IMG/VR virus record: IMGVR_UViG_3300045012_000097
Coordinates: 1-26,221 of that record
DNA: 26,221 bases
Reading direction: 5' to 3' (one strand)
DNA from: a virus
Made by a program: the position numbers and the translations under genes. Shown one piece after another: positions 7,043 to 26,221 of the stretch. Position 1 is the first letter of the stretch. Every line of letters begins with the position of its first letter. Under the pieces are notes generated by a model that worked only from the letters and a program-made list of their open reading frames with translations, had not been told where the DNA came from and ran no database searches.

Positions 7043-7071
7043 AGTTTAGCACACGCGCACACGCGTGTCAA
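7043..7071 (-). promoter_or_regulatory. Sigma70-type promoter for the packaging/head operon
   Basis: On the minus strand TTGACA (7071-7066), a 17 bp spacer and TAAACT (7048-7043) with the extended -10 TGC. The spacer and flank contain the perfect inverted repeat ACACGCG-TGTG-CGCGTGT, a possible operator. The stop codon of the HNH gene (TGA, 7070-7068) lies inside the -35 box. The expected start near 7036 leaves a ~20 nt leader before TerS. Confidence 0.8.
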
Positions 7072-7442
7072 GTTGCGCCTGCATTCCTAGCGCGATGCCA
7101 ACTCTTTATATTATCGCTCAATGTTCCGTATTCCAAGTTATCCCACCTACAGTTCAACTCGTTCTGGTCCTTATGCATCACTTGCATCCCCTCTGGGCGA
7201 GGCCCAATGAATAATCTAGCCACCACTTGGTGCAATTTCAGAGTCTTCGATCTCCTGTGACCAGAGGCCGTATATCCTTCTACCGGTATATTAAATCCCA
7301 GATACCTAGTGCTCTTTAGTTTTCCCTTCTGTATTAATTTTAATTTCTTGGGTCTCCATTCACCGTCTGCTAAATATTGTACATTCCCATAGTTCGATAC
7401 TCTATGCCATCTATGCTCCGGCAATATTATCCACTCCTCCAT
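7068..7442 (-). CDS. HNH homing-type endonuclease with NUMOD4-like N-terminus
   Basis: In this 124-residue protein, the N-terminus (EEW, then VSNYGNVQYL) matches the NUMOD4 DNA-binding motif found before HNH domains in phage endonucleases. The HNH part is HQVVARLF (71-78), VMHKDQNELNC (88-98) and WDNLEYGT (100-107), giving the His/Asn/His-type pattern of the HNH_3 class with His90 as likely catalytic His. Free-standing HNH genes beside terminase can be selfish homing elements or act in packaging-site cleavage. The gene has its own promoter at 7449-7477, placed so that transcription should begin at or next to the ATG, and no Shine-Dalgarno is seen upstream. Confidence 0.88.
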   Translation of the reverse strand: MEEWIILPEHRWHRVSNYGNVQYLADGEWRPKKLKLIQKGKLKSTRYLGFNIPVEGYTASGHRRSKTLKLHQVVARLFIGPRPEGMQVMHKDQNELNCRWDNLEYGTLSDNIKSWHRARNAGAT

Positions 7443-19389: not shown

Positions 19390-19418
19390 TTGACAGCACA
19401 CCCGCGCCGTGTTAAAAT
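19390..19418 (+). promoter_or_regulatory. Sigma70-type promoter of the PEP-CTERM gene
   Basis: TTGACA, a 17 bp spacer, TAAAAT with the extended -10 TGT; one of the closest matches to consensus in the set. It serves only the gene at 19447. Confidence 0.82.
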
Positions 19419-19446
19419 GGCGTGTAAAATTACACAGGAGAGCCAC

Positions 19447-20100
19447 GTGAATAAATGGTTAATGACTACGGCGCTGTTGTTGGCAATGGGAACCGTGCCT
19501 GCTCACGCGACGTTGCAGATCGAAGTGTTCGACAACGGTTCGCTGATCGACAATGTGACGGGAATCACCACGGGCGCGGCTTCGCTCACCGCCAACGATG
19601 CGAACTTCGCCAACATCACGATCAACGCGCAAGGCTCGCCCATCCTACCCAACGCGGACCTATCAAGCGTCACGCTCGACGCAACTGCGGCGGTTGGATT
19701 CACCGGTTCGCACACGTTGACGGTGGACATTCTGCAAAGCGCTATCTTCGGCACCGGAAACACGCTCTCGACTTTCACCGTCAACGGTCTGACCAATGAT
19801 CCTGGGCCGACCACCGAATCCACCTTCGCCGATGGCGGAGTGCTGGCCTCGCACACCTTCCCGGTGGCGCTGCTCGACGGTTCGTTCGGGCCAGTGTCGG
19901 CAGCGACCGGTGCGTTCACCTCTGACGAGACCCAGTTCGCCGTGGATTTCACCGCGCCACGGCAATCATTCGGCGGTTCTATTCAGTTGACCACTGGCGT
20001 TCCGGAACCGTCAACTTGGGCAATGCTGCTTGCAGGGTTCGGGTTAATTGGCGCGTTCGGCCTGTTTCGCAACCGCAGAGCCAACTTTCGCCTGATTTGA
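19447..20100 (+). CDS. Secreted PEP-CTERM protein (moron-like cargo)
   Basis: A 217-residue protein. The GTG at 19447 is chosen because AGGAG lies 5 nt upstream and because it gives a clean signal peptide (KWLMTTALLLAMGTVPAHA, cleavage after AHA). The mature part is Thr/Ser/Gly/Asn-rich and beta-like (TLQIEVFDNGSLIDNVTG; GSHTLTVDIL). The last 33 residues are a PEP-CTERM signal: VPEPSTWAM, a hydrophobic helix (LLAGFGLIGAFGLF) and an Arg cluster (RNRR). In bacteria this is cut by exosortase/EpsH for export to the envelope or matrix. It has its own promoter and is closed by two hairpins. It reads as host-derived cargo. Confidence 0.88.
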   Translation: MNKWLMTTALLLAMGTVPAHATLQIEVFDNGSLIDNVTGITTGAASLTANDANFANITINAQGSPILPNADLSSVTLDATAAVGFTGSHTLTVDILQSAIFGTGNTLSTFTVNGLTNDPGPTTESTFADGGVLASHTFPVALLDGSFGPVSAATGAFTSDETQFAVDFTAPRQSFGGSIQLTTGVPEPSTWAMLLAGFGLIGAFGLFRNRRANFRLI

Positions 20101-21644: not shown

Positions 21645-21684
21645 GGGTGGGGAGTTGAGGATTGGTTCTCCGGGCTCCCCACCC
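21645..21684 (+). promoter_or_regulatory. Leader hairpin upstream of the DNA polymerase gene
   Basis: GGGTGGGGAG (21645-21654) and CTCCCCACCC (21675-21684) make a 10 bp perfect stem with a 20 nt loop. It ends 8 nt before GGAG (21693-21696), the ribosome site of the polymerase. There is no U-tract. It is placed like a translational operator, as in T4 gene 43 where the polymerase binds its own leader. Confidence 0.6.
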
Positions 21685-21702
21685 ACTCTCTCGGAGATTT
21701 AC

Positions 21703-23475
21703 ATGTTCCAAGGCATCGACCCACAGCGCGCCATAAATATGGTATCGCAATCTACAGTTATTGCGATTGATACAGAAACAACGGGATTAACAGTCCATGA
21801 TCGAGTATGTGGATGGGTGTTTACCGACGACTATGCAAGCATCTACGTACCCACTCGTCACTTGGGTGGAGGCAATATTCTCAATGCGGACGAATTCGAG
21901 AGAGTACTTGCTTTGTCTTTTCGAGATCGATCCAGGCGCGGATTTCGGACCATCGGGCATAGTCTTGGTTTCGACCTTCGCATGGCGGGAAAACACGGAG
22001 TCTTCCCCGAATTCCCCCTGGAAGACACGATGATCAATGAGGCACTTATCAGTGACATTACTAGGGGATACGGACTCGACGACTGTTGCACTCGTCATGG
22101 CGTTACTGCTAAGCTTGGTGATGCTGTTTACCGTGCCATTGCTAGTAGATTTGGTGGAATGCCCGACCGTAAAGCGATGGCTAATTTTCACCGAATGGCA
22201 GGCGATGATCCTGACGTTGTTGATTATGCTACGGGTGATGGGATATCCACTCTAGAGCTGTGGAAAGCTCAGCAAAAGATGCTCGACGATCACGAATTAC
22301 GGGTTCCCTGGAAGTTGGAGTGCCAACTTATTCACAGGGTGGCGCGTCTTCACCGACGCGGAATGAAAGTGGATGGAGAATATGGAGAGCAACTTCGAGG
22401 ACCGACCGGAATTCTTGAGACGAAAATTGCCACGCTTCAATCGGCCTTTCCATATGGTTTTAACACCAACTCGCCAAAAGACGTTGAAGGTTTATACCGT
22501 CGTGCGGGATTCGGGGACGACGACTTCGCTCGCACCGAGAATGGGGCCGTTTCATTTACCGAAGGGTGGTTAAAGAATAACGAGATTGGCGAGCGAATCA
22601 TAGCGATCCGCCAGCTAAAAAAGGCTCGAGATTCGTTTGTTACGCCGCTCGTGGAGACGCATAATGTTAAGGGACGAGTTCATCCTGTACTCAATCAATC
22701 TAAATCTGACGACTACGGTGCGATCGGAGCGCGATTTAGCTGTTCTGAGCCGAATCTTCAAGCGTTCCCAAAACGAAATAAAGAAGTCGGGAAAGTCGTC
22801 CGACGACTCATCATTGCTGATGACGGTTTCGAGATTCAGGAAGGCGACGCCAAGCAGCAAGAGCCCAGATTGTTTGCATATTTCTCAGACGATGAGCGAT
22901 TACTTCAGGGATACCGCACCGGAACTATGGACATCCACGACATCACTTCCGCTGGTCTGGGATTGCACCGAGATATCGCTAAACGAATGGCCATGGGAAT
23001 CCTGACTGGCATGTCAGCTAAGGCACTGTCGGGGCACATGGGTTGGCCGTACCAACGAGCGCTCGATTACCACAACGCATTTTTAAAACAGCAATTCCCC
23101 GCCATCCGCAAATTTCAGAAGGCTGCGATGGGGGTATTTCTATCAAGCGGATATGTTAAGTCAATCACTGGCAGGAAAGCTCGTCTAGACGATAAGGAAT
23201 ACGCTTATCGCGCGGTGAGCCGAATCATTCAGAACTCTGGCGGCGATCTCATGAAAACTACGCTGCTCAGGGCATGCGAATATGAAGAGGCATACCCACA
23301 AGTTCAGCTGCTAATGACAATTCATGATTCGCTGATATGGCAACGCCAAGTCGGATTCAATACCAGCGAATTGGTGCGAGTGTGCGAGGCAGTTCCGAAT
23401 GAGTTCAAACTCGGTCTACCTATTCCTTATGAGGTCGGAACTGGAACAAACTGGGCAGAGGCATCCTATGGCTAG
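21703..23475 (+). CDS. dpoZ: Family A DNA polymerase with 3'-5' exonuclease, DpoZ candidate
   Basis: A 590-residue protein whose ATG follows GGAGATTTAC. The exonuclease has DTETTG (23-28), HSLGFDLR with Asp91, and YATGD (175-179): all catalytic carboxylates present. The polymerase has motif A GDAKQQEPR (Asp382), motif B RDIAKRMAMGILTG (423-436) and motif C IHDS (His541, Asp542). Unlike E. coli Pol I, the motif B Phe and Tyr positions are Met431 and Thr435, and the motif C Glu is Ser543. There is no 5' nuclease domain. In Z-genome phages, family A polymerases with active exonuclease (DpoZ) favour 2-aminoadenine over adenine. The symbol is proposed from PurZ and MazZ co-occurrence, not from a test. 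It overlaps the next gene by 8 nt. Confidence 0.88.
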   Translation: MFQGIDPQRAINMVSQSTVIAIDTETTGLTVHDRVCGWVFTDDYASIYVPTRHLGGGNILNADEFERVLALSFRDRSRRGFRTIGHSLGFDLRMAGKHGVFPEFPLEDTMINEALISDITRGYGLDDCCTRHGVTAKLGDAVYRAIASRFGGMPDRKAMANFHRMAGDDPDVVDYATGDGISTLELWKAQQKMLDDHELRVPWKLECQLIHRVARLHRRGMKVDGEYGEQLRGPTGILETKIATLQSAFPYGFNTNSPKDVEGLYRRAGFGDDDFARTENGAVSFTEGWLKNNEIGERIIAIRQLKKARDSFVTPLVETHNVKGRVHPVLNQSKSDDYGAIGARFSCSEPNLQAFPKRNKEVGKVVRRLIIADDGFEIQEGDAKQQEPRLFAYFSDDERLLQGYRTGTMDIHDITSAGLGLHRDIAKRMAMGILTGMSAKALSGHMGWPYQRALDYHNAFLKQQFPAIRKFQKAAMGVFLSSGYVKSITGRKARLDDKEYAYRAVSRIIQNSGGDLMKTTLLRACEYEEAYPQVQLLMTIHDSLIWQRQVGFNTSELVRVCEAVPNEFKLGLPIPYEVGTGTNWAEASYG

Positions 23476-23740
23476 ATTAGAAGACCACAAAGTCCCAATA
23501 CATTCCTGCCCCAATTGCAACAAAGAAATGGATGGGGCGATGGATGTAACTAATGCGCAGAGCCGCCCGCCAGAGAATGGGGATGTCGCGATATGCTTCT
23601 ACTGTTCTCACATCGCGATATATGAAGACGGTCAATTGCGAAACCCGAACGACGAAGAAATGAAGGACATTGCCGGAGATATCGATGTTGTTCACGCCAT
23701 AAATGCGATTGCGCACGGCAGGAGCGCAAAGAAGGGTTGA
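23468..23740 (+). CDS. Small four-Cys zinc protein
   Basis: In this 90-residue protein, CPNC (residues 15-18) and CFYC (43-46) form a zinc ribbon separated by 24 residues. The C-terminal half is helical and acidic. The ATG overlaps the polymerase end, so it is translationally coupled. Role unknown; proximity suggests replication or transcription accessory. Its stop TGA is inside the next -35 box. Confidence 0.72.
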   Translation: MARLEDHKVPIHSCPNCNKEMDGAMDVTNAQSRPPENGDVAICFYCSHIAIYEDGQLRNPNDEEMKDIAGDIDVVHAINAIAHGRSAKKG

Positions 23741-23765
23741 CGGTGTGCACGCGCTGTGTTAAAAT
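23737..23765 (+). promoter_or_regulatory. Sigma70-type promoter for the Z-biosynthesis operon
   Basis: TTGACG, a 17 bp spacer, TAAAAT with the extended -10 TGT. The predicted start near 23772 lies 2-5 nt before the first start codon. It would drive 23777 through PurZ, MazZ and beyond. Confidence 0.8.
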
Positions 23766-23776
23766 GGGAGACGATG

Positions 23777-23986
23777 ATGGCGGAGCGAATAGGTGACGAA
23801 TTACATGAGTTCGAGGCTCGAGTGGAACATTCCACACAGAAGGCTTGGCTAGTGATTGACACCATGTCAAATAACCAAGCCTGGCTTCCCAAGTCGATCG
23901 GGCGCATCGTTCGCGACGTCGACCCAGAAGGGTTAACTATATTCGCTGCCCCCGATTGGTGGGTGAAGAAAAATAGGTTCATCTGA
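23777..23986 (+). CDS. Small protein, first gene of the Z operon
   Basis: This is a 69-residue protein. Two tandem ATGs (23774 and 23777); the second is spaced 6 nt from GGGAG. A mixed fold with a beta-like middle (KAWLVIDTMS; IVRDVDPEGLTIFAAPDWW). The stop overlaps the next ATG (TGATG). Function unknown. Confidence 0.65.
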   Translation: MAERIGDELHEFEARVEHSTQKAWLVIDTMSNNQAWLPKSIGRIVRDVDPEGLTIFAAPDWWVKKNRFI

Positions 23987-24180
23987 TGGTATACGATAAT
24001 CCAAACCACGCCCCAAAAGCCTATTCGACGAAATACTACAAATGCGATGCATGTGAACATCTGCACGTTGTACTGGTAGATAAAGACGATAAATACATCG
24101 CAACTGCAGTCATCAGTCGCGACGTGCTAGAACACATGTTCAAGGTGATTGACGATGATCCAACTATTCTGACGCAATGA
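23986..24180 (+). CDS. Small protein with CxxC and His residues
   Basis: The 64-residue protein has CDACEHLH at about residues 20-27, which could bind one metal ion, followed by a strand and a helix (HVVLVDKDDKYIATAVISRD; EHMFKVIDD). It is coupled at both ends (TGATG, ATGA). Function unknown. Confidence 0.68.
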   Translation: MVYDNPNHAPKAYSTKYYKCDACEHLHVVLVDKDDKYIATAVISRDVLEHMFKVIDDDPTILTQ

Positions 24181-24569
24181 CCGAAGAGAGCCAACTCAAG
24201 ACAGAGCTTGTGAAGCAATGTAAGGCTATGGGTTGGTACGCTCGCCGAATAGAGGATAAATTCGCCGTTGGTATTCTGGACATTCACATCGTTCCCACAA
24301 ACTGTCAGACACTATTCGTAGAGGCCAAGGTGACTGATGGGCTGGTATTCCGACCGACCGAGCGGCAATTCATCGAGGGACGACGCATTATCGAGGCAAG
24401 AGGATTCGCGCAGCCGGTACTAATCGGTTGGCGACAAGACATAATGCACATCGCGGATTGGGCCAGGGAAGCGTATATAACGCGCGCGTTCAAACAACCA
24501 TCGAACATGAACTATGCCCAAACAATCGGAGAGTGGCTTCATGGGAAACAATACAATAACCAGTCTTAG
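24177..24569 (+). CDS. VRR-NUC / PD-(D/E)XK-type nuclease
   Basis: The 130-residue protein has an N-terminal helix ESQLKTELVKQCKAMGW, then the catalytic core GILDIHIV (Asp at about residue 35) and LFVEAK (Glu and Lys at about 49-51), followed by a helix with QRF-like TERQFIEGRRI. This is the order of the small VRR-NUC and Holliday-junction-resolvase-like nucleases, usually structure-specific. In a replication operon it probably resolves branched DNA or acts before packaging. Catalytic residues appear intact. It starts with an ATGA overlap and overlaps the next gene by 29 nt. Confidence 0.8.
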   Translation: MTEESQLKTELVKQCKAMGWYARRIEDKFAVGILDIHIVPTNCQTLFVEAKVTDGLVFRPTERQFIEGRRIIEARGFAQPVLIGWRQDIMHIADWAREAYITRAFKQPSNMNYAQTIGEWLHGKQYNNQS

Positions 24570-24831
24570 CAGCATCGAAATGAGCGTAAAAGAATTGGTG
24601 GCGCGCAGAGCCTTGACTCATGGTAGTTGGGCCGAAACGGCAAGAGTAGCTCAGAATATTAAGAATGCGATGGGTAGTTCTCCAAATTGGCCGAACTTAG
24701 CAGACAGCCAGAAAGAAGGGCTAGACATGATTGCGCAAAAGATAGCGCGTATCCTGACTGGGAACATGAATGCTGATGAGCATTGGGAAGACATAGCTGG
24801 TTACATCGAGTTGATAAGGCGGGGACTGTGA
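24541..24831 (+). CDS. DUF6378-like phage protein
   Basis: A 96-residue protein. The ATG at 24541 follows GGAG with 9 nt spacing. The sequence RALTHGSWAETARVAQNIK, NWPNLADSQKEGLDMIAQKI, then ILTGN and EHWEDIAGY match the DUF6378 pattern, a helical phage protein common near nucleotide-metabolism genes such as MazG-type hydrolases. The role is unknown; its all-alpha shape and Asp/Glu placement recall NTP-pyrophosphohydrolase folds, but no full motif is seen. Its stop overlaps the PurZ start (GTGA). Confidence 0.75.
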   Translation: MGNNTITSLSSIEMSVKELVARRALTHGSWAETARVAQNIKNAMGSSPNWPNLADSQKEGLDMIAQKIARILTGNMNADEHWEDIAGYIELIRRGL

Positions 24832-25886
24832 GCAGCCTATTCGCGTCGACTGGCCTCCACGTAATGGCGGGAGGTCAATATGGCTCCGAGGGCAAGGGCC
24901 TGCTCGCCGCTTGGCTCGCAGAACGCGCTATCGAGGAGAACATTCCATTCAACGGCGTCATTACAAGCGCGGGGCCGAATAGCGGACACACCAGCTATTT
25001 CGGCGATCGTAAGATTGTGCTGAAACAGCTGCCTACCTTCGCAGTTCACATGAGCTTACGAGGGTGGCACATTCCAGTCTACTTTTCGGCGGGATCGGTG
25101 ATCAATGCCGAAATACTGGTATCGGAACACAACGCATTCCAGGGCATCCCCATCTATATTCACCCATGCGCGACGGTAGTTCTCGAAAAGGATAGGGTGG
25201 CCGAACATGATGCCTCTAGTAGCATATTCGCTGTTGCTGGAACCCGCAGTGGAACCGGTGCGGCTATTGCTCGCAAAGTCCGTCGGGATATTTCCGCTAT
25301 TTATTACAACTATTCTCAGCGCTTGTTTCCCTATTATGAAAGTATTGTTGATCTGGATTATCATCCGTATTTTATGGAGATATCACAAGGATTTTCACTA
25401 GGATTGAACGAGGCCAAATTCTACCCTAACGTAACCAGCCGCGAATGTACGTTCATGCAGGGAATGGCCGATTCCCGCCTCCCGCCAACGTATTATAAAC
25501 GAGGCTATCTGGCGTTCCGAACTTATCCGATCCGAGTCGGGAATTCCGATGGGTTCAGTAGCGGAGATTGGTATCAGGATCAGCAAGAAACCACCTGGGA
25601 TGCGATAGGCGTTCCCGCCGAATATACGACCGTAACTAAGCGGGTGCGCCGTGTCGCCACGTTCAGCTGGAACCAGTTCAAAGATTCGGTGACAGCGAAT
25701 GCGCCGACGCACGTGTTCCTAAACTATATGAACTACCTCCATATCAAAGAGCAGCTAGAGTTCTACGAGAAACACCGACAGGTAAGGAATGTTTCCCTTG
25801 GAGAAAATTACAAGTTTATCTTCGGGCATGGGCCTCGAGTGGAGCAAGTTAACGATCAGGATTCCCCCGGAATTGAGAGCATATGA
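24828..25886 (+). CDS. purZ: PurZ: N6-succino-2-amino-dAMP synthase (PurA homologue)
   Basis: The 352-residue protein joins dGMP and aspartate (using ATP or dATP) to give the precursor of 2-amino-dAMP (dZMP), then processed by host enzymes. It starts at GTG in a GTGA overlap behind AAGGCGGGG. The loop GGQYGSEGKG (15-24) aligns with PurA's GxQWGDEGKG, with the catalytic Asp replaced by Ser20, the hallmark separating PurZ from PurA. Other PurA-family blocks: GPNSGHT, a reshaped IMP-loop equivalent GTRSGTGAA, RTYPIRVG and TTVTKRVRRVATFS. Length fits phage PurZ (about 340-360) and is shorter than bacterial PurA (about 430). MazG-like gene follows directly. The reaction is known for the family and inferred here. 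Confidence 0.9.
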   Translation: MSSLFASTGLHVMAGGQYGSEGKGLLAAWLAERAIEENIPFNGVITSAGPNSGHTSYFGDRKIVLKQLPTFAVHMSLRGWHIPVYFSAGSVINAEILVSEHNAFQGIPIYIHPCATVVLEKDRVAEHDASSSIFAVAGTRSGTGAAIARKVRRDISAIYYNYSQRLFPYYESIVDLDYHPYFMEISQGFSLGLNEAKFYPNVTSRECTFMQGMADSRLPPTYYKRGYLAFRTYPIRVGNSDGFSSGDWYQDQQETTWDAIGVPAEYTTVTKRVRRVATFSWNQFKDSVTANAPTHVFLNYMNYLHIKEQLEFYEKHRQVRNVSLGENYKFIFGHGPRVEQVNDQDSPGIESI

Positions 25887-26124
25887 ACATGACATGCGGC
25901 GCATGTTCGATGCGATGGTATACAAGCTTCGCAAGAATGCCCATAAAGGAAAGTGGGAACACGGGCGCGTCGTCGAATATATGAACCATCTCCGCGAGGA
26001 AGTAGTGGAACTATCCAACGCCATCGAGGAAGGAAAGAATACCGTGGAGATAATCCTCGAAGCTGCCGACGTGGCGAATATGGCGCTAATTCTGTGCGCA
26101 ATGGCGATCGACGGGAGGGACTAA
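25789..26124 (+). CDS. mazZ: MazG-like dNTP pyrophosphohydrolase, MazZ candidate
   Basis: The 111-residue protein has the all-alpha NTP-pyrophosphohydrolase signature: a KxxK-W lead (KNAHKGKWEH), EEVVE at ~71-75 and EAAD at ~92-95, the metal-binding EExxE...ExxD arrangement. In Z-genome phages MazZ turns dGTP (and GTP) to the monophosphate that PurZ uses, so its place straight after PurZ fits. The start is not certain: the ATG at 25789 has CAGG 6 nt upstream and overlaps PurZ by 98 nt; an ATG at 25828 has no clear ribosome site. The stop overlaps the next start (TAATG). Confidence 0.82.
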   Translation: MFPLEKITSLSSGMGLEWSKLTIRIPPELRAYEHDMRRMFDAMVYKLRKNAHKGKWEHGRVVEYMNHLREEVVELSNAIEEGKNTVEIILEAADVANMALILCAMAIDGRD

Positions 26125-26221
26125 TGGACGATAAACAGATCGTAGATCTCGCCGTGGAAACAGCCAAGATGATGGTTAGAGCAGCGGTGCAAACGATTGG
26201 TGATGTTGATGATGAAACACG
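26124..26221 (+). CDS. Partial gene at right edge, unknown
   Basis: ATG at 26124 overlaps the MazZ stop (TAATG) behind GGGAGGGA. Only 32 codons are visible (MDDKQIVDLAVETAKMMVRA...), predicted helical. It is too short for identification; DatZ would be an attractive candidate by context but there is no HD motif in the visible part. Confidence 0.6.
   Translation, partial: MDDKQIVDLAVETAKMMVRAAVQTIGDVDDET

Follow-up and report, generated by a model that had tools for sequence, protein, structure and literature searches.

Comparison with described Z-DNA systems

The biology of PurZ, MazZ, DatZ and DpoZ, the proteins of 2-aminoadenine (Z) DNA, is already published; in that work DatZ is well conserved alongside PurZ and MazZ and is thought to keep ordinary adenine (A) out, and the question is how the polymerase and the removal of deoxyadenosine triphosphate (dATP) divide adenine rejection between them. 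A 2026 survey states that PurZ phages 'mostly' encode DatZ, and its main text is silent on Ochrobactrum, DUF6378 and VRR nucleases (PMC12884076). Here we compare these systems with IMG/VR virus record IMGVR_UViG_3300045012_000097, a 26,221-base fragment of a soil phage (hereafter the window, meaning this whole stretch), which carries an operon with purZ and mazZ. It is highly likely that this phage, which has host-type promoters and is related to Ochrobactrum phage vB_OspP_OH (OH), makes 2-aminoadenine deoxynucleotides, and that its lineage does so without DatZ. What is new is that 21 of 49 loci of the clade are without DatZ, among them every covered relative in the window's subclade; recurrent loss of DatZ was not found in the literature searched.

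The Z-cluster of cyanophage S-2L (purZ, mazZ, datZ) resembles the window in that PurZ is followed by an overlapping MazG-type hydrolase, but it has a MazZ-1, keeps DatZ and comes with a non-selective PrimPol and no DpoZ. Vibrio phage phiVC8 shares with the window PurZ, MazZ-2, a PolA-type polymerase and a nearby pair of nuclease and DUF6378 genes, although DatZ is present and the pair lies downstream of it, as also in ZP6 and Bm1. The PurZ0 systems (Wayne, Ghobes) with DutZ/DmtZ likewise combine an Asp-to-Ser synthase and pool-adjusting enzymes with no DatZ; however, their synthase forms a separate clade, and neither a dUTPase (DutZ) nor DUF5664 was detected in the window's clade.

The nearest named phage and isolate is OH (Wolominvirus, NC_070933; 41.2 kb), whose gp28-gp36 have the same order as the window: DpoZ, gp29, nuclease, DUF6378, PurZ, MazZ, small open reading frame (ORF) and helicase. 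The OH paper assigns these genes to nucleotide salvage, and no base analysis was found in it (PMC7139368). In OH, DatZ (gp35) separates the small ORF from the helicase, whereas the window's subclade is without it. Both gene order and replication module are shared with OH-like (Wolominvirus-related) phages, at identities to the OH homologues of 56% for the polymerase, 48.5% for PurZ and 43% for MazZ.

PurZ and MazZ

The earlier note on this DNA had pointed to a PurA-type loop with Ser for the catalytic Asp, and the motif GGQYGSEGKG indeed occupies residues 15-24 of PurZ, with Ser20 at the site of the PurA Asp; this serine aligns with S23 of S-2L PurZ and is invariant in nine PurZ. The longest ORF starts with TTG at 24783, and the GTG at 24828 was preferred as the start. 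The top NCBIfam model was PurZ NF038379 (198.1 bits, against 108 for the next, a PurA model), and the protein also matched PHROG 1211 ('2-aminooxy adenylosuccinate synthetase', 5.5e-48) and Pfam PF00709 (2.2e-17). The published substrate pocket of S-2L PurZ (PMC8342488) was mapped to the window at 30 positions, of which most were identical, including the serine, N51, R153, Q187, R236, V237 and T267-T270, and the differences include A137, G138, N201 and V202. The pocket for deoxyguanosine monophosphate (dGMP) and ATP is present, and both the TTVT loop and V237, the equivalent of the ribonucleotide-blocking valine V241 of S-2L, are kept. The closest solved structures by sequence are phiVC8 PurZ 6FM1 (1.8e-36) and S-2L PurZ 7ODX, with PurZ0 and archaeal PurA ranking behind. 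In a 36-row maximum-likelihood tree the protein falls within the phage PurZ clade (100/98), separate from PurZ0 and PurA, and the identity proposed earlier is upheld by the Asp-to-Ser change, the pocket and this placement together. An ordinary PurA that forms AMP from IMP, or a gene that has decayed and fallen out of use, is a very improbable alternative: the protein's Pfam name is adenylosuccinate synthetase and its score lies under the PurZ curated cut-off (see below), but the catalytic Asp is replaced, the pocket is of the PurZ type, MazZ and a DpoZ-like polymerase adjoin, and the frame is kept open across a divergent clade.

The MazG-type hydrolase that had been reported downstream with overlapping genes shares 98 nt with PurZ. 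Four acidic residues, E71, E74, E91 and D94, are invariant in 19 homologues, and their number matches the metal ligands expected of MazZ-2. The family profile reaches MazG-like structures (AF_0060 2p06, E 1.8e-6; MazG-related 2yxh), the same two being the top Foldseek matches of the AlphaFold model, with weak E-values. With these ligands, membership in the MazG-HisE superfamily and a gene adjoining purZ, the protein belongs with MazZ-2, and its role as a (d)GTP pyrophosphohydrolase is predicted from characterised homologues. One relative, L089 (10001-11431), has PurZ and MazZ fused in a single frame of 477 amino acids (aa), so that the two activities are naturally linked there. In two other loci (L028, L034) PurZ is followed by DatZ and MazZ was not found, MazZ having apparently been lost while DatZ was kept.

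The synthesis of dZ precursors by the operon is well supported. By analogy with characterised homologues, MazZ would convert dGTP to dGMP; PurZ would combine dGMP and aspartate, with ATP or dATP, into succino-2-amino-dAMP; host enzymes (PurB, kinases) would carry this on to dZTP; and the phage DpoZ-like polymerase would insert Z opposite T. Adenine would be either kept out by the polymerase, with PurZ draining part of the dATP, or incompletely excluded.

A clade with a fixed operon order

Scanning IMG/VR with a PurZ profile gave 80 loci, of which about 63 are related and form a clade with a fixed order: DpoZ, gp29, nuclease, DUF6378, PurZ, MazZ-2, in some loci a small ORF, DatZ where present, and an SNF2 helicase. 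With gene profiles run over all ORFs of the non-redundant loci having enough flank, the nuclease was found in 63/63, DUF6378 in 61/63, gp29 in 59/63, the polymerase in 53/53, the helicase in 49/49 and MazZ in 46/49, plus the L089 fusion, whereas DatZ was present in only 28/49. The earlier note had drawn the operon from 23737 to 26221; the genes inside this range stand (Table 1), but it left out the DpoZ-like polymerase of the same module. The operon is interrupted by the end of the record, 98 bases past MazZ.

Table 1. Positions of the operon and its flanking features in the window.
Feature	Position	Strand	Basis or remark
DpoZ-like family A DNA polymerase with 3'-5' exonuclease	21655..23475	+	Longest ORF; true start may be further in
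Sigma70-type promoter, extended -10 (TG), TTGACG-N17-TAAAAT	23737..23765	+	Pattern matches; recurrence in relatives
gp29-like small protein, function unknown	23774..23986	+	ORF from 23756; likely ATG 23774 or 23777
64-aa ORF, probably not core	23986..24180	+	Family search without match
VRR-type PD-(D/E)XK nuclease	24177..24569	+	G..D..ExK..Q signature complete; 63/63 loci
DUF6378-like four-helix protein	24514..24831	+	PF19905 9.3e-5, under Pfam cut-off; 61/63 loci
PurZ, succino-aminodeoxyadenylate synthase	24828..25886	+	352 aa, GTG start; family models, pocket residues, tree
MazZ-2-type nucleotide pyrophosphohydrolase	25789..26124	+	Conserved acids, MazG-like profile and fold matches; overlaps PurZ
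Start of gp34-like ORF, roughly 71 aa	26124..26221	+	Cut by record end; complete in L002 (6496-6711)

Absence of DatZ

The co-conservation of datZ with purZ and mazZ that characterises the canonical Z-cluster does not hold in L002, the nearest and near-identical relative (97% nucleotide identity over 6.6 kb), or in the covered subclade members. In L002 and relatives nothing beyond small ORFs or HNH genes stands where OH has DatZ; in others MazZ and the helicase abut, several of them with gaps of -1 to 62 bases (clean junctions in, e.g., L056, L061, L017 and L025). By eye, some DatZ-less loci have HNH-like, homing-type ORFs in this gap (L004 4379-4711, L020, L053, L060). Six DatZ-less genomes (G006, G008, G011, G016, G019 and G020) look complete because exact terminal repeats of 69-127 bases stand at their ends. 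A location of DatZ elsewhere in the relatives' genomes was rejected by tblastn, by PF12917 and PF01966, and by a 21-sequence DatZ profile, which recovers DatZ in each of the 7 positive records but in none of 23 others, ten of them of 42-45 kb and among these the six with terminal repeats. In the 44-kb DatZ-less relative G005, the part unmatched by the window or L002 is mainly one stretch of roughly 8 kb that lies, by position, within the virion genes. We take DatZ to be in all likelihood absent from this exact phage, which would thus probably be without the usual adenine-exclusion enzyme.

No substitute for DatZ was detected either: Pfam HD, DUF5664, dUTPase (DutZ) and NUDIX searches of the relatives were all negative, and no clear candidate for a replacement gene specific to DatZ-less genomes was found, the enriched clusters looking mainly structural, under simple ORF calling that may miss small genes. 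A MazZ variant linked to DatZ loss was rejected as well, since by eye the MazZ type tracks the tree and not the DatZ state.

DatZ presence switches at least six times, both on the PurZ tree and on a tree of five concatenated operon proteins, and in the latter the starred branches force all six changes. Such change counts cannot separate loss from regain; in the window's subclade, where every placed relative is without DatZ, loss is the simple reading, because other PurZ phages and the outer branches carry DatZ.

Polymerase and exclusion of adenine

The top NCBIfam model for the window polymerase is DpoZ_1 NF038380 (250 bits, against 175 for Pol I), and both its exonuclease motifs and its polymerase motifs are intact. 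Its provisional placement, in a tree with only four non-Z polymerases, is with phiVC8-like DpoZ (86/83). In helix O this polymerase and those of the clade have Met and Thr (Ser in OH) at the positions of E. coli Pol I Phe762 and Tyr766; this is an unusual active-site change, and phiVC8 DpoZ, unlike the window, has Phe at the Tyr766 position. Neither these residues nor the insertions missing from the polymerase (see below) follow the DatZ state.

A pathway free of DatZ is allowed for by two published properties of the homologues: purified phiVC8 DpoZ shows a preference of one to two orders of magnitude for dZTP over dATP (PMC8599892), and S-2L PurZ consumes dATP as well as ATP (PMC8342488). Several points weigh against reading the locus as a Z-DNA pathway of this kind. 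Both family scores are under the curated cut-offs, 198.1 bits against 300 for PurZ and 250 against 500 for DpoZ_1, and with a shortfall of 100 bits the window PurZ is a divergent member of its family. The window stops before the DatZ slot, the absence there being read from L002 and the other relatives. Of the three insertions known from phiVC8-like DpoZ (PMC8599892), numbers 2 and 3 (fingers), which phiVC8 has, are missing in the window, OH and relatives across the clade. Finally, phiVC8 DpoZ in vitro still incorporates A to some extent when dATP is at its cellular level (PMC8599892).

A mixed genome is therefore a live alternative, in which Z is made but, without DatZ, the DNA is a mixture of A and Z. 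We regard it as possible though somewhat unlikely: the repeated absence of DatZ with no substitute found in the relatives, the lack of insertions 2 and 3, the Thr at the Tyr766 position and the residual A incorporation of phiVC8 DpoZ alone all speak for it, but phiVC8 DpoZ by itself gives a large preference for Z, and dATP could be drained through PurZ itself. It is unlikely that dATP removal has been taken over by another operon protein, of which MazZ or the DUF6378-like protein would be the best candidates. Both genes are near-constant in the operon, and there is a precedent in the DUF550-DUF5664 protein of SH-Ab 15497, which hydrolyses dATP and dGTP (PMC12884076, PMC8342488); however, both are equally present in DatZ-positive relatives, and DUF6378 has no fold match in the PDB and is common in PurZ-less phages.

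Z may take the place of A in the window phage genome, as had been proposed, but the replacement may fall short of all A, because DatZ is missing from the covered subclade and the polymerase is without two phiVC8-type insertions. Other Z-DNA has an established resistance to host nucleases, which the DNA of this phage may share. For the clade as a whole, we give about even chances to the statement that a widespread group of phages makes Z-DNA without a dATP-destroying enzyme, with adenine excluded by the polymerase alone (and dATP use by PurZ) or with natural A/Z mixtures, DatZ being optional and lost or regained many times. A DatZ-less lineage would be a natural test of adenine exclusion, and the variation of DatZ while the other genes stay allows the roles of polymerase and dATP removal to be tested directly; the clade may also be a source of polymerases, or of gene sets, for making Z-DNA from fewer components.

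Promoter and other operon genes

The operon had been credited with a promoter of its own, and a comparable one lies between DpoZ and the nuclease in 43/62 related loci, against 64/365 random intervals. The pattern has 15 matches in the window (0.39 expected), and near-complete genomes of the clade have 7-20 strong sigma70 extended -10 promoters each (~0.5 expected). L002 is without one gene just upstream, and its alignment with the window restarts exactly at the 23737 promoter. A zinc-ribbon-like ORF between polymerase and promoter (23399-23740) is absent from L002 and present in G004, G005 and G006.

Two small ORFs had been suggested as new accessories. The gp29-like ORF has a homologue in the same place in 59/63 loci, as counted above, but the 64-aa ORF was found only in L002. 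The VRR-type nuclease is confirmed, its residues E4, G32, D35, E49, K51 and Q64 being invariant in 14 homologues. The DUF6378-like gene is likewise a regular part of the operon, but its standing as a Z-specific accessory is weakened: homologues occur in 205 phage records, mostly of Salmonella and Klebsiella phages and few among the PurZ hits, and the family is therefore not Z-specific. A known enzyme fold was rejected, as neither its sequence nor a Foldseek search with its AlphaFold2 model (predicted local distance difference test, pLDDT, 82.7) gave a PDB match, and the BFVD matches were mainly uncharacterised or DUF6378 phage proteins. The DUF6378-like proteins in the same slot of the window and of its close relative L003 (2291-2743) are 17% identical, as if very different subfamilies had replaced one another in place.

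PurZ-family genes in bacterial assemblies

In a single genome scan, about 18 Clostridia/Bacilli assemblies (including L151, L160 and L166) encode a PurZ-family protein with the Asp-to-Ser change (DGQAGSCGKGK). Canonical PurA above cut-off was not found in 9 of the 12 such genomes tested, whose completeness was not reported. The genes are apparently chromosomal, three contigs inspected by eye having neighbours such as recA and nusA, or GAPDH/PGK/TPI. Their products group with phage PurZ and not with PurZ0 (99/97), and several genes stand beside, or are fused with, a Nudix-like protein (a Nudix-PurZ fusion in L160, 7548-9077).

Remainder of the record

Genes for virion proteins, among them an SU10-type portal and a terminase, lie on the minus strand in the first part of the record, and replication genes follow on the plus strand from ~9.5 kb (primase, Pam3 gp33/gp34-like proteins, family A polymerase). 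An HNH_3 gene (PF13392) lies at 7068-7442. A PEP-CTERM protein with an exosortase-type sorting signal (VPEPSTWAM...) is encoded at 19390-20100, directly downstream of a strong promoter, and PEP-CTERM proteins or weak homologues of it occur in L002 (16-726), G004, G005, G008 and G016.

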